Positions 34,365 to 45,710 of a DNA stretch of 57,614 bases are shown here, in pieces (position 1 is the stretch's first letter; each line of letters begins with the position of its first letter). This DNA is from Vulcanimicrobiota bacterium (lineage in GTDB: Bacteria; Vulcanimicrobiota; Vulcanimicrobiia; Vulcanimicrobiales; Vulcanimicrobiaceae), in NCBI GenBank assembly GCA_019236975.1, contig JAFAHZ010000099.1:1-57614 (forward strand), given 5' to 3'. The position numbers were made by a program, and so were the translations under genes. The notes below the pieces were generated by a model, which saw only the letters and a program-made list of their open reading frames with translations, made no database searches and was not told the origin of the DNA.

Positions 34365-35057
34365 CTAACAGTTCGAGGGGACGGTCGAAGGCGACGGCAT
34401 CGGCTCGGCGATGGGCGTCGGTTTGGCCAGCGTATCGAGTGCGGGCTGTGCGGCGGGCGTCGGCTGCAGCGACGGCCCGAGCACGTTCTGCATACCGGTA
34501 TGGCAGTTCAGCATCGTCGACATATCTGCCGGCCGGATGAAGTTGAGCTGACCGCTTGCCGGGAGCTGCGTGAGGCCGCCGAAGATCGACTGTAAGTAGT
34601 TGGGGACGAGCACTTGCGCGGAAACGACGGGCGTGTTGCTGAGCGCGATCGCCGGCTGATTCAAACCAGTCGTGTACACCGCCGTTTGCGAGTTCGTTCC
34701 GTTCGCGCAGGAGAGCGTCGGCGGAGCCGCCGTTGCTTGCCAGAACGGTCCGCTGGTTGGACCCGGATACGAGCCGCTGTTGCTCATCGCGTCGGTCGAG
34801 GGGGCGTTGCAGGTCTGCACCGGAATCGGCGAGTTGGTCGTCGTCGTGCCCAAGCTGTTGTAGAGCACGTACATGCTGTATTGCGTGAACGGATTGATTT
34901 GGTTGGCGATCAGACCGCTATAGCGAATCGCGCCCTGCACGCGCTCGCTGAGCACGCCGTATTGCGCCGCCCAGATGATGCCCCACAGCGTCAACAGGAT
35001 GAGCGGCATGAAGAGCGCCGTCTCGGTGAGTGCTTGTCCGCGCGAGCGTGCCGTCAT
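34365..35057 (-). CDS. TadE-like pseudopilin
   Basis: Protein of 230 aa. N-terminal SRG followed by QALTE (glutamate at +5 after the glycine) is the prepilin cleavage site, with a hydrophobic helix after it (about 15-40). The remainder is a Ser/Thr/Asn/Pro-rich exported domain with several cysteines and a Pro-rich C-terminal tail. TadE-type minor pseudopilins are needed for Flp pilus assembly. Start ATG 35057 gives an ATGA overlap with the tadG-like gene; ATG 35066 is possible. Last gene of the minus arm. Confidence 0.75.
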   Translation of the reverse strand: MTARSRGQALTETALFMPLILLTLWGIIWAAQYGVLSERVQGAIRYSGLIANQINPFTQYSMYVLYNSLGTTTTNSPIPVQTCNAPSTDAMSNSGSYPGPTSGPFWQATAAPPTLSCANGTNSQTAVYTTGLNQPAIALSNTPVVSAQVLVPNYLQSIFGGLTQLPASGQLNFIRPADMSTMLNCHTGMQNVLGPSLQPTPAAQPALDTLAKPTPIAEPMPSPSTVPSNC

Positions 35058-36211
35058 GAGTTCCACGGCGTGTTCGAGTTACAGTTTCCGGCGGCGGGGG
35101 TGAACGTGCCGGAATACGGCGAGACGGGAATCGCGCTCCACCAGCCGGTCCACGTCGAAAATTCTTCGGTTGTGATGCCGGCGATGTAGCCGCCGAAGAC
35201 CGGAGGCAGGTTGTTGCCCGGATTGTTCGTGATGCTGCGCCAGTTGTTGGCGCACCAGTGTACGGCATACCAGTCGTAGGCCGCGTTATCCGAGTTGCAG
35301 AACGTACCGGCATTGTAGAACGACGGCTGTGAGTCGGTCGCGCTTTCGACGAACTCGGGTCCGTTGTACGCGCCTTGCGAGGGCGACTGCGGGTTGTTTT
35401 GCAGCCCCGGATTGAACCACTCTTGCGTCACCAGCGTCGTCGTCGCGCCGGCTCGGCCTACCGCCGTAAACGGCGCCGCGAGACCGAAGACCTGCGTGCC
35501 GCCGAGCTTCCACAGCGCGGCGAAGGGCGAGCTGACTTGCGCGCACGTGTCGACTTCGATTTGCAACGGATTGAGATCGGAAACGATCGCGCCGCCGTTG
35601 GGAAGCGGTACCCCGTCGCCGTTGTCTTCGCCGCCGGCGTCGGAGAGCGCGCCCGAAAGCGATGGCCGCGCCGTCGGCGCCGCGATCGTGTACTTGAACG
35701 CGCAGTCGCCGGCGGTGGGGCTGTTGCCGCCGGCGCAGTGGCTCGCGTACTGATCGGCGATCGTCTGCATGTCGGCGAGCTGCTGCGTCTGCGAATATTC
35801 GGAAAGCGCCGCCATCTGCTGCACGAGCTGCCCGTAACGCGCCACCTGCTGGATGTAGTTGTTGCGCAGGCTGTTGTACGCGGCCGCGCAATCGATCCAG
35901 CCCGTCGCCGTCAGCGTGCCGTATTTACATCCGCCGCTTCCCTTGAGAAGATTCAGCATCGCCTGCATGGTGCGCCGGATGCGATATTCTTCGATGCCGG
36001 CCGCGTGCACGTTTGCGGTGATCGAGTTGAAGTGCGCCGCCTGGACGCTGACGATGCCTTGCGCGACCGAGTCCGCGGCGTTCTGCGCGCGAATTTGCCA
36101 GCGCACCGCGTTGGCATAGTTAAAGACCGCCATCATCAGCCACAACAGCGTGAGGATGCCGAAAATCCAAACGGGGAACGTTTGACCGCGCTGTGCGTGC
36201 AACGTACGCAT
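35054..36211 (-). CDS. TadG-like pilus assembly protein
   Basis: Protein of 385 aa. It begins RGQTFPVWIF and then has one membrane helix (10-32). NAADSVAQGI is the Tad/TadG N-terminal signature. It lacks the E+5 prepilin glutamate, as TadG proteins do. The rest is a long exported domain, Asn/Gly/Ser/aromatic-rich with cysteines; no von Willebrand A domain was recognised. Start ATG 36211, two bases after the stop of the preceding gene. Confidence 0.72.
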   Translation of the reverse strand: MRTLHAQRGQTFPVWIFGILTLLWLMMAVFNYANAVRWQIRAQNAADSVAQGIVSVQAAHFNSITANVHAAGIEEYRIRRTMQAMLNLLKGSGGCKYGTLTATGWIDCAAAYNSLRNNYIQQVARYGQLVQQMAALSEYSQTQQLADMQTIADQYASHCAGGNSPTAGDCAFKYTIAAPTARPSLSGALSDAGGEDNGDGVPLPNGGAIVSDLNPLQIEVDTCAQVSSPFAALWKLGGTQVFGLAAPFTAVGRAGATTTLVTQEWFNPGLQNNPQSPSQGAYNGPEFVESATDSQPSFYNAGTFCNSDNAAYDWYAVHWCANNWRSITNNPGNNLPPVFGGYIAGITTEEFSTWTGWWSAIPVSPYSGTFTPAAGNCNSNTPWNS

Positions 36212-36213
36212 CG

Positions 36214-37572
36214 TTAGTAGGCCGGATCCCCGGCGGTGGTCGCGCCGGCGAGCGGGTTGGTGGGCGCGAAGCCGGCGCCGAGGCCGTTCGGAATGCCCGG
36301 CTGATCCCACCAGTAGACGAGTGCGAACGACGCGCCGTTCCAGCTGCCATTGTTACCGGTGGGCGAGCCGCAGTTCGGGCCTTCCGGGCCGTCGTTGCCG
36401 GCGTCGGACGGGTAGGCGTACGAGGGTGCGCCCACCGCTACGCTCGTGTTGCCGCCAAAACGGTTAATGCCGAACGGCAGGTGCCCACCGTACGCCTTGG
36501 CGGCGATGTTGCCGCTCTTTTCCCACCAAGCCATCTCGTCGTAGTAGTACATCGGGAGCGATTGCGGCACGCCGCCGCAATCGCCGCCGTTGAGGAATCC
36601 CAGCACCGTGGATGCTTGCGCCGACGCATTGCCTTGGATCGCCGTCGCAACGTTAAAAAGGATCACGTCGCCGGCTTGGCTATTCGTGACGAACGGAAAT
36701 GCGGGAATCAGGTCCGCGAAAATGCGCTGATGCGCCGCCATCACGCCGAAGACTTGCCCGTTGTTGACGCCCATACCGTTCGGAGCCGCGTAGTTATAGT
36801 TCGAGAGATAGGACGCGACGCCGTAGTACCAGTTCACGTCGTTGTTGCACGTCTGCCCGAAAGCGCCGGCGCCAAAATTCCCCGTTCCCCCGTTACCGCC
36901 GCCCGACCACGTGTCGGCGCACACCTTCGTAAAGGTGGCGGGAACGTAATACGGTGGCGTGTTCATGTTGGCGATGACGGCATCGCTCTGCGGTAAGAAC
37001 GGGCTCGCGTACGTGGGGTTGAGAACGTTCGAGCCCTCGAACGAGTTCGGGCCGCCGCCGAGCTGATCCATCTGATTTTGCGTCATCAGGTAGTAGCCCT
37101 CGACGCTGCCCGAAGAAATCGGAACGTTAGCGTAGCCGTAGATGCCCGACATGTTCCACTGCGCGGTCGCGCCGTTGCCGGCGTTTTGATTGAGCGACAC
37201 GGAGTAGTTCTGCGGACGAACGAGGGTGAAGCCGCCGTTGCGCGAGTTTTGGCCGCCGGCCTGCATGTTCGAACCGTACATGACGTTGAACGGACTCGGG
37301 TCGACGCTGGGCGGCGGTGCCGGCGAATACGTGAGCGCGTTGGTGATCATCGGCGGCACGAGATTGCTGATGTTGGCCGAGATGTTGGCTTGGGTGACGC
37401 CGAGCGTGTACCAGTGCGCGGCAAAGAAGACGGCTGCGTCGCCGGCAACTTGCAAGTAGCCGATGAGCACGATCTGCAGCATGCCGAAGAGCGAGACGAG
37501 CGTAAAGGCGAGCACCGCTGCGGTCTCGGCGAGCGCGGCGCCACGACAGGCGTGCCGGCGGTCGGGCTTCAC
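36214..37572 (-). CDS. TadE-like large pseudopilin
   Basis: Protein of 452 aa. CRG then AALAE fits the prepilin cleavage site with E at +5, followed by a 22-residue helix. The exported part (about 55-452) is rich in Asn, Gly, Tyr and Pro, unlike the Ala/Arg-rich proteins around it, and resembles secreted pilus tip or shaft proteins. GTG start 37572 overlaps the pilin stop (GTGA). Confidence 0.65.
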   Translation of the reverse strand: MKPDRRHACRGAALAETAAVLAFTLVSLFGMLQIVLIGYLQVAGDAAVFFAAHWYTLGVTQANISANISNLVPPMITNALTYSPAPPPSVDPSPFNVMYGSNMQAGGQNSRNGGFTLVRPQNYSVSLNQNAGNGATAQWNMSGIYGYANVPISSGSVEGYYLMTQNQMDQLGGGPNSFEGSNVLNPTYASPFLPQSDAVIANMNTPPYYVPATFTKVCADTWSGGGNGGTGNFGAGAFGQTCNNDVNWYYGVASYLSNYNYAAPNGMGVNNGQVFGVMAAHQRIFADLIPAFPFVTNSQAGDVILFNVATAIQGNASAQASTVLGFLNGGDCGGVPQSLPMYYYDEMAWWEKSGNIAAKAYGGHLPFGINRFGGNTSVAVGAPSYAYPSDAGNDGPEGPNCGSPTGNNGSWNGASFALVYWWDQPGIPNGLGAGFAPTNPLAGATTAGDPAY

Positions 37573-37772
37573 GGCACGACGGTCGGCGGTGGACTCTGTT
37601 GAACCCCAGTCATTCCGGTCGTCCCCGCGTTATAAGCGGTGTTGGCATTTTGCGCGATGTTCAGAAACGCTGCCGAACAGGCTAACGCGAAGAGCGCCAG
37701 CACCAGCGCGTACTCCATGATCGCGCCGCCGGACGTATCGCGCAGGAGCCGCGTCAGCAGCCCTTTCGTCAC
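37569..37772 (-). CDS. Flp-family type IVb pilin (second pilin)
   Basis: Protein of 67 aa. T-S-G then GAIMEYALVL gives a Flp cleavage site with E at +5 and the EY pair, then a hydrophobic helix and a short Gly/Thr/Pro tail. It is polymerised into, or caps, the Tad pilus. Unlike the plus-arm pilin it lies with secretin and pseudopilins. ATG 37772 overlaps the secretin stop. Confidence 0.82.
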   Translation of the reverse strand: MTKGLLTRLLRDTSGGAIMEYALVLALFALACSAAFLNIAQNANTAYNAGTTGMTGVQQSPPPTVVP

Positions 37773-39211
37773 TGATTGATCACCGTCGGTAACATAACGA
37801 AGACGACGTTGGTTTCGTTGTTGGTATAGTGCACGGACTGGAACAGCGCTCCGAGGATCGGAATCGCGCTCAGTCCGGGGACCTTGAAGATCTCTTTCTG
37901 CTGTAGATGCCGCAGCAGACCGCCCATGACGATCCCCTCGCCTTCGCTCGTAATAACGTCGGTCGAAAGCTGGCTAATCTTGAGACCCGGCACGGTCGTT
38001 CCGTTCAGGCTGACCGCATTGGTATAGTCCAGGTCGGAGACGGTCGGCGCGATCTTCGTTTCGATCTTGCCGTTGCCTAGAATCGTCGGCGTCACGTCCA
38101 ATTGAACGCCGTACTGCTGGAACTGGACGCTGACCGAACCAAAACCTGACGAATACGTGTACGGGATTTGTCCGCCGACCAAGAACTTGGCCTCTTCGCC
38201 GGGCAGAGTAACCAGGTCAGGGGACGACAGAATGCGCCCGTGCCCGCTCTGCAGTACGAGATCGAGCGTTGGCATCAGGAAGACGTTGCGGAAGAACGCG
38301 CCGATCGTGAACGCCTTGCCGGGATGGCCGGCGTTCCCGTTTTCGATGATTGGGAACGACGGCGGAACCGGCAGGATCTCGGCGGGATTACTCGGGTTGG
38401 GCTGGCCGCCCTGGAAGTTCACGCCAAGCTGGGAGAGGCCCGAGTTGTCCATCTCGAGGACGTAGACTTTCACGTCCACCTGGCTCGTGAGGTCGACGGC
38501 GAGCCGGTCGATGACTTTGGCGTTGGTCGCCAGGAAGCGTCCGGCCAGGCCCCGCGCCTTATCCATGACCATCTCGGCCTGCTGGCGGTCGCGCACTTCA
38601 CCGCTGACGATGATGTTGCCGGCCCCGGCCGTGGACTGGTCGTAGTCGAGGTGGATGTTCGAAGCGCCCGGGATATGCGCCAGCTCTTCTTCGATGGCGC
38701 CCAGCGGATGAGGAACGTAGAGCGCGTTGACGAGGGTCTGATTCTGGGCCTTCGCCAGGGCGGTAAAGCGGCTCAGCACCGAGTCGACGTAGTCCGAAAC
38801 CGCCTGATCCTTGACCGTGCCGCGGACGACGACCGCGTTGCGGAAGCTGACGACCTGCACGTTGGGCACGTTAAGCGCCGCGCGGATCATCTTGGCCAGA
38901 TCGTTGGGGACTTGCCCCGAAACGTAGACCTGGTACTTCGTCACGCCGCCGTAGCTAGCCCAAACGTAGACCGTCGTGCGGCCCGGAGCCTTAGCGTTGA
39001 TGACCACCTGGCCCGTCCCCAGCGGAACGACGCCGGCGATCGTGGCGTCGCCGGTGGCCACGCGCGTGAGGCCGGGCGCATCCACGATCGTGGACGAGCC
39101 GGTCTCGAGGACGATCACGTCGGAATCGGCTCTCGCGGCCAGCGTCGAGCCAAAGCAAAGTGCTACGCCAAAAAGCAGCGCTGCGAGAACGCGCGCATTA
39201 AAGCTCCTCAT
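37769..39211 (-). CDS. cpaC: Tad pilus outer-membrane secretin (CpaC/RcpA)
   Basis: Protein of 480 aa with a cleaved signal peptide (about 1-28, ending AARA). A pilus-secretin N-domain comes first (IVLETGSS...VATGDATIAGV). A BON-like domain follows (residues about 110-225). The C-terminal secretin channel has the VPGLSAIPILGALFQS motif. It forms the outer-membrane pore for Flp pili, which argues for a diderm envelope. First gene of the minus arm; the divergent gap to 39363 holds promoter signals. Confidence 0.93.
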   Translation of the reverse strand: MRSFNARVLAALLFGVALCFGSTLAARADSDVIVLETGSSTIVDAPGLTRVATGDATIAGVVPLGTGQVVINAKAPGRTTVYVWASYGGVTKYQVYVSGQVPNDLAKMIRAALNVPNVQVVSFRNAVVVRGTVKDQAVSDYVDSVLSRFTALAKAQNQTLVNALYVPHPLGAIEEELAHIPGASNIHLDYDQSTAGAGNIIVSGEVRDRQQAEMVMDKARGLAGRFLATNAKVIDRLAVDLTSQVDVKVYVLEMDNSGLSQLGVNFQGGQPNPSNPAEILPVPPSFPIIENGNAGHPGKAFTIGAFFRNVFLMPTLDLVLQSGHGRILSSPDLVTLPGEEAKFLVGGQIPYTYSSGFGSVSVQFQQYGVQLDVTPTILGNGKIETKIAPTVSDLDYTNAVSLNGTTVPGLKISQLSTDVITSEGEGIVMGGLLRHLQQKEIFKVPGLSAIPILGALFQSVHYTNNETNVVFVMLPTVINQ

Positions 39212-39362: not shown

Positions 39363-39803
39363 GTGCTAAACAAATTTGTGGCAGCGGCGGTACTGACCGT
39401 CGCGGTCTCGCCGTTCTCCGGAGCCGCTGCAAGGGCCGCCAACAACGTCCCCGCACCCGTCTCCGTCAACGGCGCAATGAGCGTAACGGTCGCGCCGGCC
39501 ACCGGCTCCGAGGCGATTACCGTCTCGGGAACGGCGCCGGCTATGGCACCCGTCGTCGTGCTGTTGCACGCGACGATTTCCCGCGATCTGCCCAACGTGT
39601 TCGTGAATCGCCGCGACGTCTTCGCCGACGCCGACGGCCATTTCTCGACCGTCGTGCCGATCGGGCCGGATTTTTGGCGCGGGAGCATCCTCACCGTTTC
39701 AGTAAGCTCGTCGTCGGCCACGGCCTCGGCGAACGCACAAACCATCGTGACCCTTCCCAACCCGGGCGTCGTCCTACCGGCCGACGACGTGCCGAGTCAT
39801 TAA
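39363..39803 (+). CDS. small secreted protein at the head of the pilus plus arm
   Basis: Protein of 146 aa with a signal peptide (about 1-26, ending ARA). The mature part is strand-rich (SVTVAPATGSEAITVSGTAP, then VVVLLHATISRDLPNVF) like a small Ig-like beta-sandwich. It is followed 37 nt later by the Flp pilin gene. No family recognised. Possibly a periplasmic or pilus-associated protein. GTG start 39363. Confidence 0.65.
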   Translation: MLNKFVAAAVLTVAVSPFSGAAARAANNVPAPVSVNGAMSVTVAPATGSEAITVSGTAPAMAPVVVLLHATISRDLPNVFVNRRDVFADADGHFSTVVPIGPDFWRGSILTVSVSSSSATASANAQTIVTLPNPGVVLPADDVPSH

Positions 39804-39840: not shown

Positions 39841-40002
39841 ATGATCCAGACCCTCAAAGCCATGCTCGCTAACGAAGACGGAGCTTCGCTGGTCGAATAC
39901 GCGCTGATCGTCGCGCTCATCGCCGTCGTCGCGATCATCGTTCTCAAGACGCTCGGCAACAACGCAAGCTCGGTACTCGGAACGGCAGCAACCAGCGTCT
40001 AG
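39841..40002 (+). CDS. flp: Flp-family type IVb major pilin
   Basis: Small protein of 53 aa. NEDG then ASLVEYALIVALIAVVAI is a textbook Flp prepilin: cleavage after G, glutamate at +5, EY pair, then a 20-residue hydrophobic helix and a short polar tail. It is likely the major subunit of the Tad pilus. GGAGG lies 13 nt before the ATG, somewhat far. It is followed directly by the prepilin peptidase gene. Confidence 0.93.
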   Translation: MIQTLKAMLANEDGASLVEYALIVALIAVVAIIVLKTLGNNASSVLGTAATSV

Positions 40003-40012
40003 TACTCCCAGT

Positions 40013-40474
40013 ATCTCGGCGCTCTTACCCTACGTCTGTTCGCTGATCGCTTGTGCGGCTGCGGCCGTCTCCGACCTTCGGACGCGTAGGATCCCCAATA
40101 CGATCCCGTTAGCGCTTGCGCTTTTTGGCGTAACGTTTAACGTATTCGGCGGATGGCGTCCGGCGCTGTCCGCCGTTGCGGCCGGGATCCTGGTGCTCGT
40201 CGTGGGCACGCTGCCGTTTTCACTGGGCGCGCTCGGAGGCGGCGACGTTAAGTTGCTGGCCGCCTGCGGGTGCGTGTTCGGTCTGAGCGAGCTGCTCCCA
40301 CTCGTTGTTTACACCGCCCTAATAGGCGGTGCAGTTGCGCTTGTGTTCCTGGTGCTGCGCCGTATTTCGGGGACGAAGGAGCGAGTCAGATTACCGTACG
40401 CGATCGCGATCGCGGGCGGAGTGCTGTGGATCTCGCTGGCCGATACGGCGCTGCCACACTTGAAAATCGTTTAG
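40013..40474 (+). CDS. A24 prepilin peptidase (TadV/CpaA-type), start unresolved
   Basis: About 153 aa, five or six membrane helices. Catalytic aspartates are in VSDLRTRRIPN and GALGGGDVK, both intact. It removes prepilin leader peptides. The N-terminal helix begins right after the pilin stop codon, where the only candidate starts are non-standard (ATC 40013 or CTG 40043). The first canonical codon in frame, GTG 40193, would lose the first catalytic aspartate. The true start is therefore unclear; 40013 is used as a marker. Confidence 0.75.
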   Translation: MSALLPYVCSLIACAAAAVSDLRTRRIPNTIPLALALFGVTFNVFGGWRPALSAVAAGILVLVVGTLPFSLGALGGGDVKLLAACGCVFGLSELLPLVVYTALIGGAVALVFLVLRRISGTKERVRLPYAIAIAGGVLWISLADTALPHLKIV

Positions 40475-40519: not shown

Positions 40520-41308
40520 ATGAATAGGCGGACAATAACGATTGCCGTCGTCGCCGTCTTAGCTTTCGGCGTCGCGCTGATCGTTTACGGAGTTCTCACG
40601 GCGCCCCGCAAATCGGCGGCGCCGCCTCGCAACGTGGTCATCGCGTCGATGAACATTCCCGCCAGCGCGCGCATCGTCCCGAGCATGGTCAATACGGTTC
40701 AGAAGCCGGCCGACCAAGTCGAACCCGACGCGTTTAGCGACCCATCCGACGCGGTCGGCATGATCGCGACGTCCGACATCCCCCTCGGCGCCGCGCTGAC
40801 GCCGGCCCGGCTGGCGCGGCCCTCACCGCCGCCGCAGGGACCGCAAGTCGCCGTCGGTATGCGCGCCATCACGATTCCCATCGACGTCATCAAAGGCGTC
40901 GGAGGATTGCTCCAGCCGGGCGATCACGTCGACGTGCTGGCCTCGCCGCCCCGCGGAGCGAGTCAGCCGGTCGCGTTCGCGATCGTTCGCGACGCCATCG
41001 TGCTGGCTGTCGGAACCAATCTCGCGCCGGTGCCGCAGGCCAGCGGGTCCCCCGCTCCTAACGCCACGCCGGCGCCGCCCGCAACGACGGCAACCCTGCT
41101 GGTGACGCCGCCGCAAGCTGCGACCATCCTGTCCGCCGATCTCAACAGCATCTTGCGTCTGGCCCTGCGCTCGCCCCACGAACCGATGCGCTCGCTCGCG
41201 TCCCAGATCATCGTCTACCCGACGCCGCTTCCGGCACCGCTGCCGACCGGAACGCCGCGCGGTATCCCCGTCGTCAACGGTGACGCGGTCATATCGGTGC
41301 AGCCGTAA
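40520..41308 (+). CDS. cpaB: Flp pilus assembly protein CpaB/RcpC
   Basis: Protein of 262 aa. One N-terminal membrane helix (7-25) precedes a SAF/antifreeze-like domain (VVIASMNIPASARIVPSMV, then DIPLGAALTPARLA). The RcpC core follows with AITIPIDVIKGVGGLLQPGDHVDVL. It binds peptidoglycan or stabilises the secretin. A Pro/Ala-rich insert lies at about 175-195. The stop overlaps the next start as TAATG. Confidence 0.9.
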   Translation: MNRRTITIAVVAVLAFGVALIVYGVLTAPRKSAAPPRNVVIASMNIPASARIVPSMVNTVQKPADQVEPDAFSDPSDAVGMIATSDIPLGAALTPARLARPSPPPQGPQVAVGMRAITIPIDVIKGVGGLLQPGDHVDVLASPPRGASQPVAFAIVRDAIVLAVGTNLAPVPQASGSPAPNATPAPPATTATLLVTPPQAATILSADLNSILRLALRSPHEPMRSLASQIIVYPTPLPAPLPTGTPRGIPVVNGDAVISVQP

Positions 41309-43377
41309 TGTCCGCCTCAGTCATCACCATCATTGGTGCGAAGGGCGGCGTCGGCTCGACGACGCTTTCGTACGAACTCGCGCAGGCGCTCTCCAAACGC
41401 GGCCGCATCGCGCTGGTCGACGGCGACTTCGGCGGCCGCCGCACGATCGCGCTGCTGACGAACTGCGTCAAGGAGCTCGACGAAGCACGCGACGAGTCCA
41501 ACAATCTCTCGTTCGTCACGCTGCGTGACGGCATCACCGCCGTCGAACTCGCGCACAACATTCACGCCGGCTTTACGCTCAAGCCCGAAAAGGTTGAGGC
41601 GCTCGTCCAGAACTTTGCGCAAACCGGGACGTCGGCGATCGTCGACGCGCCGCAGCCGTTCGCTGCGGCCATCCGCCCGTTCATCGTACGCTGCGCGAAG
41701 TTTTTCTTGGTCGTCGAACCGACGCTGCTCGGCCTCGCCGGCGGCAAAGCGATGATGGCCGAGCTGCAAAAGTTCGGCATTTCGATTTCGCAGATCGCCG
41801 CCGTGAGCGTGCAGCGCGACGCCCACTCGGAGTTTGCAAAGAACGACATCGAACGCGCGCTGGGCGTCAAGCTCGCCGCAGAGATTCCGCCGAAGAGCGA
41901 TCGCCGCTACGCGCGTGCGGTCGAGCAGCTCGTCGAATACGCGAGCGGATTTCTTTCGGCGCAGGATCAGACGCTCGATCTGGGTCCGTCGATCCGCTCG
42001 CCGCTCGGCGATCGCCGTCTTGCAAAACTGCGCGCCCCCACGCAGCTGCAACCGGGCATGGAGGGACGCAAAACCTCCGGCATCGACCACGAAAAAATAG
42101 AGCGCATCAAGGCGAGCACGCACGAAGCGCTTACGAAGCGGCTCGATCTAGCGGCGTCGCGCGATCGTTCCGACCCGCTCAAAGCCGAAGAGCTGCAAAA
42201 AGAAGTCCAGATGGTGGTCAACGAGCTGATCACCGAAGAGGCCGTCGGATCGGCCGAAGAGGTGGCTCAGCTGCGCCAAGAAGTCATCGACGAAGCGCTG
42301 GGGTACGGCCCGATCGAGGACCTGCTGCGCGACCCGGACGTCACCGAAATCATGGCAAACGGTCCGGATCATATCTACGTCGAGCGCGGCGGCCGCCTGC
42401 AGCTTTCGAGTAAACGGTTCACCAACGAACGGCAGCTGCGCTTGGTCATCGAGCGCATGATCGCGCCGATCGGCCGCCGCATCGACGAATCGACGCCGAT
42501 GGTCGACGGCCGTCTTCCCGACGGCTCGCGTATCAACGCGATCATCGAGCCGCTGGCGATCAGCGGCGCGACGCTAACGATCCGGCGATTCGGTACGGAA
42601 CGGCTGCACATCTCGAATCTCCTCGAGAAACGCTCGCTCGTCCCAGGCATGGTCGACTTCCTGCGCGCGTGCGTGGAAGGACGCCTCAACATCGTGGTCA
42701 GCGGCGGTACGGGTTCCGGCAAGACCACGCTGCTCAACATTCTCTCGAGCTTCATTCCGGAGTCCGATCGCATCATCACGATCGAAGACGCTGCCGAGTT
42801 GAAGATGGAGCAGGATCACGTGGTGCGCCTCGAGGCGCGGCCGCCGAACTTGGAAGGCCGCGGCGAGATCCGCATCCGCGACCTGGTTCGCAACGCGCTG
42901 CGTATGCGTCCCGACCGTATCATCGTCGGCGAGTGCCGCGGCGGCGAAGCGCTCGACATGCTCCAGGCCATGAACACCGGCCACGACGGATCGCTCACCA
43001 CCATTCACGCCAACACGCCGCGCGACTGCCTGTCGCGTATCGAAACGATGGTCATGATGGCCGGTTTCGACTTACCGTCGCGAGCGATTCGCGAGCAAGT
43101 CTCCAACGCCATCGACCTGGTCGTCCAGGTCGCGCGTCTGCGCGACGGCAGCCGCAAGATCATCGCGATTACCGAAGTCGTCGGCATGGAAGGCGAGACG
43201 GTAACGACGCAAGACATCGTGACGTTCGCGCAGCGCGGTCTCGATAAAGAAGGCCGCGTCGTCGGAGACTTCGTCTACAGCGGCGTCCAGCCGAACTGCG
43301 TCGACCGCTTCAGCGAGTACGGCATTTCGTACGACATCCGCGGCCTGTCGGAAATGACCGCGGCGATCAAGTGGTAG
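41308..43377 (+). CDS. CpaE-CpaF fusion: TadZ-like ATPase joined to TadA secretion ATPase
   Basis: Protein of 689 aa. Residues 1-230 are a MinD/ParA-type domain with the atypical loop G10-A-K-G-G-V-G-S-T that is usual in TadZ/CpaE (Ser replaces the P-loop lysine) and the LVDGDFGG strand; no receiver domain. A linker follows (about 235-330). Residues 330-689 are CpaF/TadA: Walker A G466-G-T-G-S-G-K-T473, [30 protein letters not shown], and [13 protein letters not shown]. CpaE positions the pilus machine; CpaF powers it. These are normally separate proteins. Start ATG 41308 with TAATG overlap. Confidence 0.9.
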
Positions 43378-44234
43378 CCAACTGGACCATCTATCCGATC
43401 GTCGGCGTCATCGCCGGCGCGGTCGGATATATCGGTTGGCGCTTTTGGGGCGTCGTCATCCAGTTCATCACGCCTTATACCGAACCGTACCAGGCGCGTT
43501 TGGAGCGCGCCGGTATCAAGACGGACGCCAATGACCTCGCCTTCCGCATTTTGGCCGGGTCGATCCTCTTGTGGGGCGCGTACGTCTTTACCATGCGTCC
43601 CAACGTGTGGTTTGCGTTTCTCGCGCTGCCGGCGTGTTTTGCACTGATGTTCTACGGGACCGGTTCGTGGATCAAAATCCGCACCGGTCAGCGCCTCGAG
43701 AAATTCAACAACCAGTTGGAGATTGCGCTGCGTTTGATGACCAGCGGCTTGCGGGCCGGTCTCGGCTTGCGGCAGGCCATGGTGGTCGTCGTCAGCGAGA
43801 TGCCCGATCCGATTCGCGGCGAGTTCAATCGCGTGCTCAACCAAACGTCGATCGGCGTCAGCATCTACGACGCCCTGGACAGTTTCAACGAACGCATGCC
43901 TAGTCAAGAGATGCTAATGCTGACGCGGGCCATCCGTATTCTCTCGAAAACCGGCGGTAACTTGGGCAAAACGCTCGAGACCTTGGCCGAGACGATCAAG
44001 CAGCGGCGCCGTATCGACCGCAAAGTGCGCGCGCTGACGGCCGAAGCTCGGGCGTCGGGCTTTGTCATGACCGCGCTGCCGATCGTCGTCCTCTTATTCA
44101 TCATCGCGTTCGAGCCGCAGATGCGCGATGATCTGCTCGGCAGCAACTTCGGGCGCCTCTCGGTCGTCGGCGCTCTAGGACTTTGCGGATTGGGACAATA
44201 CGTGATGACAGCCATGTCGAGAATCGACGTATGA
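43371..44234 (+). CDS. tadB: Tad pilus inner-membrane protein TadB
   Basis: Protein of 287 aa, type II secretion F domain. The N-terminal helices are at 10-30 and 65-95. The cytosolic part carries the F-domain signature LEIALRLMTSGLRAGLGLRQAM and GNLGKTLETLAETI. Two more helices are at the C-terminus. It forms the platform with TadC. GTG start at 43371 overlaps the cpaF stop by 7 nt; ATGA overlap with tadC. Confidence 0.92.
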   Translation: MVANWTIYPIVGVIAGAVGYIGWRFWGVVIQFITPYTEPYQARLERAGIKTDANDLAFRILAGSILLWGAYVFTMRPNVWFAFLALPACFALMFYGTGSWIKIRTGQRLEKFNNQLEIALRLMTSGLRAGLGLRQAMVVVVSEMPDPIRGEFNRVLNQTSIGVSIYDALDSFNERMPSQEMLMLTRAIRILSKTGGNLGKTLETLAETIKQRRRIDRKVRALTAEARASGFVMTALPIVVLLFIIAFEPQMRDDLLGSNFGRLSVVGALGLCGLGQYVMTAMSRIDV

Positions 44235-45073
44235 TTATTATCGTCGTCGGCGTCGCCGCGCTCATTATTGCCGGCGTCCTCGTTTACTACTTCCTCTCGT
44301 TCCAGAAAAACGACATTCATCGCCGTCTCGCCGAGCTCAACCTCGACACGCCGGTCGAGTCGGTGACGACGGTCGCCATCCACAAGCTCCTCGACGATTC
44401 GCAGCAGCGCTCGCTCGCGCGGCGTCTGAACGAAGCTGGATGGTACACCATGACGCCCGTAAAGATGATGGGCTTCATGCTGGTCGGTACGGGCTGCGGT
44501 GCGGGTCTGGGCATCTTGTTAGGTATTGCGCTCGGTAAGCTCGACGTGCAGACCATTTCGATATTCATCGTGCTGACGGTCTGCGGTTTCATGTTCCCCA
44601 ACGCCATGATCGACCGCGCGATCGCCGCGCGCAAGCGCAGCGTTCAACGCGAGCTTCCGAACCTGCTCGACATGATCTCCACCAGCGTGGAAGCCGGAAC
44701 CGCGTTGAGCCAAGCGCTCAACATTGGCCTCGACGCCGTATCGGGACCGTTGAAGGAGGAACTCAACCTCGTCAACGACGACATCCGGCTCGGCCGCTCG
44801 CGTCAGGAAGCGCTGGCGGCAATGGCGCACCGCGTGCGCGAGCCCGACCTCACGACCTGCGTCACCGCGATCGTTCAGGCCGAGAAGCTCGGCGGAAACG
44901 TCGCGGAAGTGTTGTATTCGCTCAGCGGCGAGGCGCGCGAACGGCGGACGCTGCGCGCCGAGGAGATCGCCGCGGCGCTTCCGGTGAAGATGGTCTTTCC
45001 GATGGCGCTCTTCATGTTGCCCGCGCTCGTCATGATCATCTTCGGGTCGGTCGCGGCCCAATATTTCAAATAG
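44231..45073 (+). CDS. tadC: Tad pilus inner-membrane protein TadC
   Basis: Protein of 280 aa, second type II secretion F-domain protein of the locus. Helices are at about 1-22, 75-120 and 250-275. Cytosolic signatures: LPNLLDMISTSVEAGTALSQAL and AEKLGGNVAEVLYSLSGEARERR. ATG 44231 overlaps the tadB stop. Confidence 0.92.
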   Translation: MIIIVVGVAALIIAGVLVYYFLSFQKNDIHRRLAELNLDTPVESVTTVAIHKLLDDSQQRSLARRLNEAGWYTMTPVKMMGFMLVGTGCGAGLGILLGIALGKLDVQTISIFIVLTVCGFMFPNAMIDRAIAARKRSVQRELPNLLDMISTSVEAGTALSQALNIGLDAVSGPLKEELNLVNDDIRLGRSRQEALAAMAHRVREPDLTTCVTAIVQAEKLGGNVAEVLYSLSGEARERRTLRAEEIAAALPVKMVFPMALFMLPALVMIIFGSVAAQYFK

Positions 45074-45086
45074 CGCGAGTTTCGGC

Positions 45087-45710
45087 GTGCTTTTTTTGAT
45101 CGGTACGGCACTAGCCGGAGCGCTCGTCTTCGGCGCGGCCGCGGTGTGCGGGCTGCTCGCCGCGACGGCGCTGCTTCCCCGGCTCCATCGCTTTGAAGAT
45201 GGGCCGGCGCCCTTTCACGTGCACCCCGGCTGGATCGTCGGCGCCGGCGCGCTGCTCGGCGCGATCTTGGCGCTCAAACACGTTCCGCTGGGTGCGTTCG
45301 CTATTGCCGGCGTCGTCGTGGTCGCGCTCGTCGGTATCTTCGAGTGCGATTCGCGCACCGGCATCGTGCCCGACGTCTTTACTCTGGTGCCGCTGGCCAT
45401 TTTGATCGGCGATAGTTTGGTGCTGCACCAGTTCGTGATGCCGGCGATCTCGGCACTGGTCGTCTTTACGCCCTTTGCGATTGCCGCACTGGTGACGCGC
45501 GGCCACGGGATGGGTTGGGGCGACGCAAAGCTCGCCGCGCTCGGCGGTGCGCTGCTCGGTATGTTCGCCGCGACGCTGTCGTTCGGCATCGCCTCGCTTG
45601 CTGCGGTGATCGTGACGTCCATAAAGTACCGCTCCAAGGCCGTGCCCGTCGCGTTCGCTCCGTATCTCGTCGGAGCCATCGCGGTTTCGATGGCGCTGCA
45701 GGCGCGGTGA
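45087..45710 (+). CDS. second A24 prepilin peptidase
   Basis: Protein of 207 aa, about six membrane helices. Catalytic aspartates lie in FECDSRTGIVPDVF and GMGWGDAKLAALGG. Longer than the first peptidase (40013) and closer to the bifunctional PilD family core, but without its N-terminal cysteine methylase domain. It may handle a different subset of the four to five prepilin-like substrates in the locus. GTG start; GTGA overlap with the DUF192 gene. Confidence 0.85.
   Translation: MLFLIGTALAGALVFGAAAVCGLLAATALLPRLHRFEDGPAPFHVHPGWIVGAGALLGAILALKHVPLGAFAIAGVVVVALVGIFECDSRTGIVPDVFTLVPLAILIGDSLVLHQFVMPAISALVVFTPFAIAALVTRGHGMGWGDAKLAALGGALLGMFAATLSFGIASLAAVIVTSIKYRSKAVPVAFAPYLVGAIAVSMALQAR

Follow-up and report, generated by a model that had tools for sequence, protein, structure and literature searches.

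The stretch of DNA analyzed here, a window of 57,614 nucleotides, encodes within one protein a TadZ-type ATPase domain joined to a complete CpaF, the motor of the Tad pilus. That both parts reside in one protein had been proposed in the original prediction, and it is confirmed by the single open reading frame, by Pfam and NCBIfam domain assignments and by the match of the C-terminal part to CpaF structures. The gene (41308-43377, plus strand) is an uninterrupted, ATG-started frame of 689 codons. On its 5' side the nearest in-frame stop ends at 41283 and no alternative start exists, which means that no further upstream domain has been missed. The protein consists of a TadZ-like ATPase domain (aa 1-217), a disordered linker (218-260) and complete CpaF/TadA. 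Pfam assigns residues 4-197 to CbiA/AAA_31/ParA and residues 331-612 to T2SSE (E 3.2e-62). The NCBIfam TadA-family model TIGR03819 matches the C-terminal part; for the N-terminal part the CpaE homolog model TIGR03815 ranks first, followed by MinD models, all of these N-terminal matches being below the curated cut-offs. All parts of the fusion are members of known families, and searches of openly accessible literature found no description of a TadZ-TadA fusion.

Table 1. Features of the tad locus and of the fusion gene, in order of position in the window. Residue numbers refer to the fusion protein.
Feature	Position	Strand	Evidence
Three TadE/F/G-like pseudopilin genes (34365-35066, 35054-36310, 36214-37572)	34365..37572	-	Pfam; recurrence by the secretin
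Secretin gene rcpA/cpaC, divergent	37769..39211	-	Secretin E 3.8e-38; T2SS-T3SS_pil_N
flp, major pilin, 53 aa	39841..40002	+	Flp_Fap E 3.6e-10
Open frame of a TadV-like prepilin peptidase; actual start inside the frame, uncertain	39908..40474	+	Peptidase_A24 E 1.7e-19
rcpC/cpaB; stop codon overlaps the fusion ATG by one base	40520..41308	+	RcpC E 1.1e-21; SAF
tadZ-tadA (cpaE-cpaF) fusion gene	41308..43377	+	Single ORF; Pfam and NCBIfam domains; end-to-end orthologs in 56 Vulcanimicrobiales genomes
N-terminal TadZ-like ParA/MinD-fold ATPase domain, aa 1-217	41308..41958	+	Mean pLDDT 82.5; Foldseek; TadZ profile above MinD profile in 33/33
Deviant Walker A KGGVGSTT, aa 12-19	41341..41364	+	Signature lysine retained; P-loop lysine replaced by serine
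Disordered linker, aa 218-260, ~42 aa	41959..42087	+	pLDDT < 50 at 219-259
Conserved linker motif L-x-x-S-...-[D/E]RR, aa 225-237	41980..42018	+	L225, S228, R236 and R237 invariant in 14 aligned proteins
CpaF NTD1, three helices, aa 261-331 (CpaF's own, not linker)	42088..42300	+	Helices 261-278, 290-311, 316-330
CpaF/TadA motor core (NTD2 + CTD)	42301..43374	+	T2SSE E 3.2e-62; catalytic motifs invariant in alignment A3
CpaF Walker motif, aa 466-474	42703..42729	+	Invariant in alignment A3
tadB, platform protein; overlaps the fusion stop	43371..44234	+	T2SSF E 4.6e-21
tadC, platform protein	44183..45073	+	T2SSF E 1.1e-20
Second prepilin peptidase gene	45087..45710	+	Peptidase_A24 E 9.5e-10

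The fusion within its tad locus

In ordinary tad loci tadZ and tadA are separate neighboring genes. Here the fusion occupies their usual position, after rcpC and before tadB-tadC, in a locus that is otherwise ordinary and whose arrangement around the fusion recurs in relatives. The parts of a Tad (T4c) locus that are present comprise the Flp pilin, a prepilin peptidase, RcpC, the secretin, TadB, TadC and TadE/G-like proteins. Among the three pseudopilin genes the middle one exceeds the Pfam cut-off for PF13400 (Tad), the first stays just below that for TadE and the third has no match; all three recur beside the secretin in related loci. This one locus carries two different prepilin peptidase genes, one by flp (39908-40474) and one after tadC (45087-45710). 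Between secretin and flp lies a gene for a small exported-looking protein (39363-39803) that is conserved across the order, and a longer homolog of it weakly matches one copper-amine-oxidase-N domain and one Ig-like domain.

The C-terminal part matches the C. crescentus CpaF structures (9e24, 8rjf) with an E value of about 5e-126 from CpaF residue 86 onward. CpaF of Caulobacter starts with a disordered NTD0 (residues 1-79), followed by a three-helix NTD1 (80-149) (PMC11300603). Taken together, this layout, the alignment and the three helices of our full-length AlphaFold model, placed with low to medium confidence (Table 1), revise the linker of about 100 residues that had been put forward earlier: it consists of a linker of ~42 residues with low pLDDT and the roughly 70 residues of CpaF's own NTD1. 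In the CpaF core the full-length model, built on a shallow alignment, is of low quality (mean pLDDT 64.7), and it gives no arrangement of the N domain relative to the motor. The fusion shares with C. crescentus TadA/CpaF the complete NTD1, NTD2 and CTD with their catalytic motifs, but where CpaF has the disordered NTD0 it has a folded ATPase domain of 217 aa and the linker. The linker motif is kept in most members and is lost or degenerate in some others.

Distribution and origin of the fusion in Vulcanimicrobiales

The source is a draft genome of 336 contigs, a circumstance in which an assembly or annotation artifact might be suspected. A sister species with a fusion that is 84% identical, its occurrence in 56 genomes and its presence in G009, a genome consisting of a single contig of 3,508,363 bp, rule this out and leave the artifact with practically no probability.

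Other Tad loci had been named in the original prediction as the place to look for the same architecture, and it was found there, within a single order of little-studied soil bacteria, the Vulcanimicrobiales ("Eremiobacterota"). At E 1e-30 the fusion is matched by 69 of the 103 genomes of the order. At least 66 loci in 56 of these genomes align over nearly the entire fusion within one open frame, and in a further three (G020, G090 and G093) both pieces share a frame; these numbers were counted by hand from the match table. All other strong matches are pieces that are truncated or lie at a contig edge, or have a frame that is interrupted inside CpaF, and the weak ones are distant ATPases. Splits inside CpaF were seen in L027 and L029 (G029:C145, G016:C71) and in G062:C50, where they represent either sequencing errors or real breaks. 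With a threshold of E 1e-60, matches were obtained in 66 of the 149 genomes of the phylum, every one of them in Vulcanimicrobiales, and there are no matches in the other 46 genomes.

No intact unfused CpaF was found in the order. One candidate of 476 aa (G008:C78) was rejected as it runs off the contig end, and the copies in G077 and G040 that consist of the N domain only are likewise cut off by the end of a contig. Outside the order, 66 loci from one GTDB genome scan, on which the absence of the fusion from other phyla rests, contain CpaF without a TadZ fusion; upstream of it there is usually a TadZ-like gene that is separate. Full-length tblastn spans in Actinomycetota, Chloroflexota and Planctomycetota resolved into adjacent separate genes and were rejected as fusions.

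The fused CpaF domains form one clade with a support of 100 and the fused N domains likewise form one clade (100/100). Moreover, pairwise identity in the N part tracks that in the C part (Mantel r 0.84, p at most 0.0005), which is to be expected of domains inherited together. As each domain is a single clade and the two co-vary, there was one ancient fusion event. Mean identity among fused proteins is 42% for the N domain compared with 71% for the C part. In one genome a free copy of the TadZ-like domain (L115 9014-10042, minus strand; G019:C82) is located directly upstream of the fusion gene. It branches with the fused domain of the same lineage (99/97) and is thus a local duplication.

Identity of the N-terminal domain

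AlphaFold predicts a confident ParA/MinD fold for residues 1-217. The top Foldseek matches, MinD (4v02) and 3ea0, a ParA-family ATPase of Chlorobium tepidum, have similar scores, and fold comparison cannot separate TadZ from MinD. Sequence profiles favor TadZ. The TadZ profile scored above the MinD profile in 33 of 33 fused N domains, and with hhalign the fused-domain profile aligned to TadZ at E 8.5e-27 versus 1.9e-16 for MinD, the TadZ alignment being also the more diverse. The best PDB match of both the TadZ and the fused-domain profiles is 3ea0, which we take to be itself a TadZ.

A separate cpaE elsewhere in the genome, which the original prediction had named among its checks, was sought with the same TadZ profile. 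None was detected in the source genome, which is 90.5% complete, or in eight other genomes including the one-contig relative; in the source genome two further long frames matched weakly (E 3e-4 and 2e-3). The other ParA relatives of that genome are two MinD proteins, a Soj-like and an Mrp-like protein, the latter two with canonical P-loops. Both minD genes exceed the family cut-off and lie in tandem (L120 5139-7574; G000:C181), and two minD copies occur in all 21 genomes searched across the class.

The domain might instead derive from a MinD- or Soj-type P-loop protein that was captured by CpaF. Consistent with such a capture are the similar fold scores of MinD 4v02 and 3ea0 and the phylogeny, in which the grouping of fused domains with TadZ reaches a support of only 55/75 and rival MinD groupings are not rejected (p-AU 0.13 and 0.077). 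Nevertheless, we regard capture as improbable: the TadZ profile wins in every fused domain, the best NCBIfam model is a CpaE homolog, the domain sits exactly at the tadZ position with no other TadZ found, and both MinD copies as well as Soj and Mrp are present elsewhere in the genome. Profile scores, gene position and the lack of another TadZ, together with a phylogeny that favors it, make a TadZ origin of the N domain very probable.

The original prediction had also counted the P-loop, described as the usual atypical one, among the TadZ-like features. The motif KGGVGSTT is indeed atypical, but by itself it is not diagnostic of TadZ, because separate TadZs vary widely, from canonical or near-canonical P-loops (KGGVGKT) in many Bacillota, Actinomycetota and Chloroflexota to those of Planctomycetota, in which both the signature and the P-loop lysine are lost. 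Within the fused proteins the pattern is more uniform. The P-loop lysine is replaced by S, A, T or V in 33 of 33 proteins examined, and the signature lysine is retained except in the contig-end copy of G040, where it is also lost. The signature lysine of deviant Walker A ATPases reaches across the dimer. K12, G13, G14, G16, D38, D40, D113 and P115 are invariant in the fused N domains (alignment A2, n=14). MinD and FlhG/FleN share the fold and the retained signature lysine with the fused domain; unlike it, they retain the P-loop lysine and are unfused.

Compared with the sister species, the N domain is 77% identical and the CpaF core 91%. For this pair NG86 yields a dN of 0.161 and a dS of 0.602 in the N domain, indicative of purifying selection, which is stronger on the CpaF core (dN 0.071, dS 0.561). 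Since the N domain evolves faster and has lost the P-loop lysine, its use of nucleotide could be vestigial. Taken further, these two traits would fit a decaying remnant, a mere N-terminal extension like the variable NTD0 of other CpaFs, as would the finding that in Caulobacter the loss of NTD0 leads to less retraction (PMC11300603). We consider this explanation decidedly unlikely, as K12, D38, D40 and D113 are invariant, the domain is under purifying selection and it has been retained in every complete copy seen.

Proposed working of the tethered domains

A receiver domain and a membrane-targeting helix are thought to position CpaE in other bacteria. The receiver (REC) domain is absent from the fusion, there being no coding room 5' of the P-loop, while among six separate TadZs scanned from other phyla five match Response_reg, three of these below the Pfam cut-off. 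A MinD-like membrane-targeting tail motif is found in 19 of 45 separate TadZs versus 0 of 33 fused linkers; this motif is a simple pattern chosen after the tails had been inspected, and the contrast is descriptive. Scanning the linker region for amphipathic helices mainly brought up the first NTD1 helix of CpaF itself. Judged from its sequence, the fused linker is without a recognizable C-terminal membrane-targeting helix of the usual kind. These observations bear on the idea, part of the original prediction, that the TadZ domain is a localizer and that the motor, through the fusion, becomes intrinsically targeted to the pole. In its favor, the N domain is TadZ-like, and TadZ/CpaE has been reported at the pole early, where it recruits other Tad parts (PMC6668835). 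With neither a receiver domain nor a membrane-targeting motif in the linker, however, the fusion does not bear out intrinsic polar targeting, and we consider a localizer unlikely.

In the Caulobacter machine the CpaF hexamer was docked and a surrounding ring was fitted with six CpaE dimers; receiver domains were suggested to join these dimers and an amphipathic helix to extend to the membrane, while in the piliated state CpaE moves to the CpaF base (PMC13170226). The fusion protein resembles TadZ/CpaE (E. rectale TadZ, C. crescentus CpaE) in its ParA/MinD-fold ATPase domain, the deviant Walker A and the gene position. It differs in being joined to CpaF, in having neither receiver domain nor recognizable C-terminal amphipathic helix, and in the fixed 1:1 ratio of its TadZ domain to the motor. 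The fused CpaF is presumably hexameric like its relatives, in which case there would, by arithmetic, be six N domains per motor.

On balance we favor the interpretation that a TadZ ATPase domain was fused once, long ago, to the N-terminus of CpaF and provides a nucleotide-binding collar tethered 1:1 to the motor. Six TadZ domains would hang from the CpaF hexamer on tethers of ~42 aa, where they would bind ATP and pair, probably with a neighbor on the same ring. Because the P-loop lysine is missing, their ATP hydrolysis is predicted to be poor. As a collar encircling the motor, the paired domains would stand in for the Caulobacter-type ring of separate CpaE dimers around CpaF, and this collar would hold the motor at the platform and gate extension or retraction. 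The covalent tether would do the job of the receiver-domain contacts and fix a ratio of one TadZ domain to each subunit of the motor, and cell-pole targeting, if any, would come from elsewhere. Six tethered domains could build at most three dimers per ring unless a free copy joins; the free copy of G019 would allow six heterodimers.

Several findings weigh against the collar. The modest support for the TadZ grouping, with MinD groupings not rejected, and the faster evolution of an N domain that has lost its P-loop lysine have been described above; the extra free copy beside the fusion in G019 suggests that 1:1 is not always enough, and the six-dimer ring of Caulobacter is itself a fitted model. 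More tentatively, the separate TadZ ring may have been replaced in the order by six motor-tethered half-dimers, with the TadZ domain acting mainly as a nucleotide-controlled gate of the motor and not as a pole localizer. If this gating were true, it would suggest gating as the core function of TadZ in Tad pili generally.

In the current picture of TadZ/CpaE with CpaF, six CpaE dimers encircle the CpaF hexamer as a fitted ring. A natural fusion that is fixed across a bacterial order provides independent evidence that the two proteins act as one complex, and it sets a 1:1 ratio of TadZ domain to motor subunit. It also suggests that, with TadZ and CpaF tethered, neither the receiver domain nor the usual membrane helix is needed. 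For biochemical work the fused protein offers one polypeptide to purify as opposed to a weak complex, and a cultured species probably carries it.

Domains added to CpaF were also seen outside the order. In Lentisphaerota (L069 2415-4517, Pfam) an extra domain likewise precedes NTD1 in one frame, but there it is an FHA domain and in the fusion a ParA/MinD ATPase. A CpaF of Verrucomicrobiota (L080 2993-4987) looks like this FHA-CpaF, a likeness by appearance. CpaF of the Abditibacteriota type (L064 6075-9692 and L076 6933-9692) follows, in the same frame, on another N-terminal region of CpaF-like but partial character and on a proline-rich stretch of some length.
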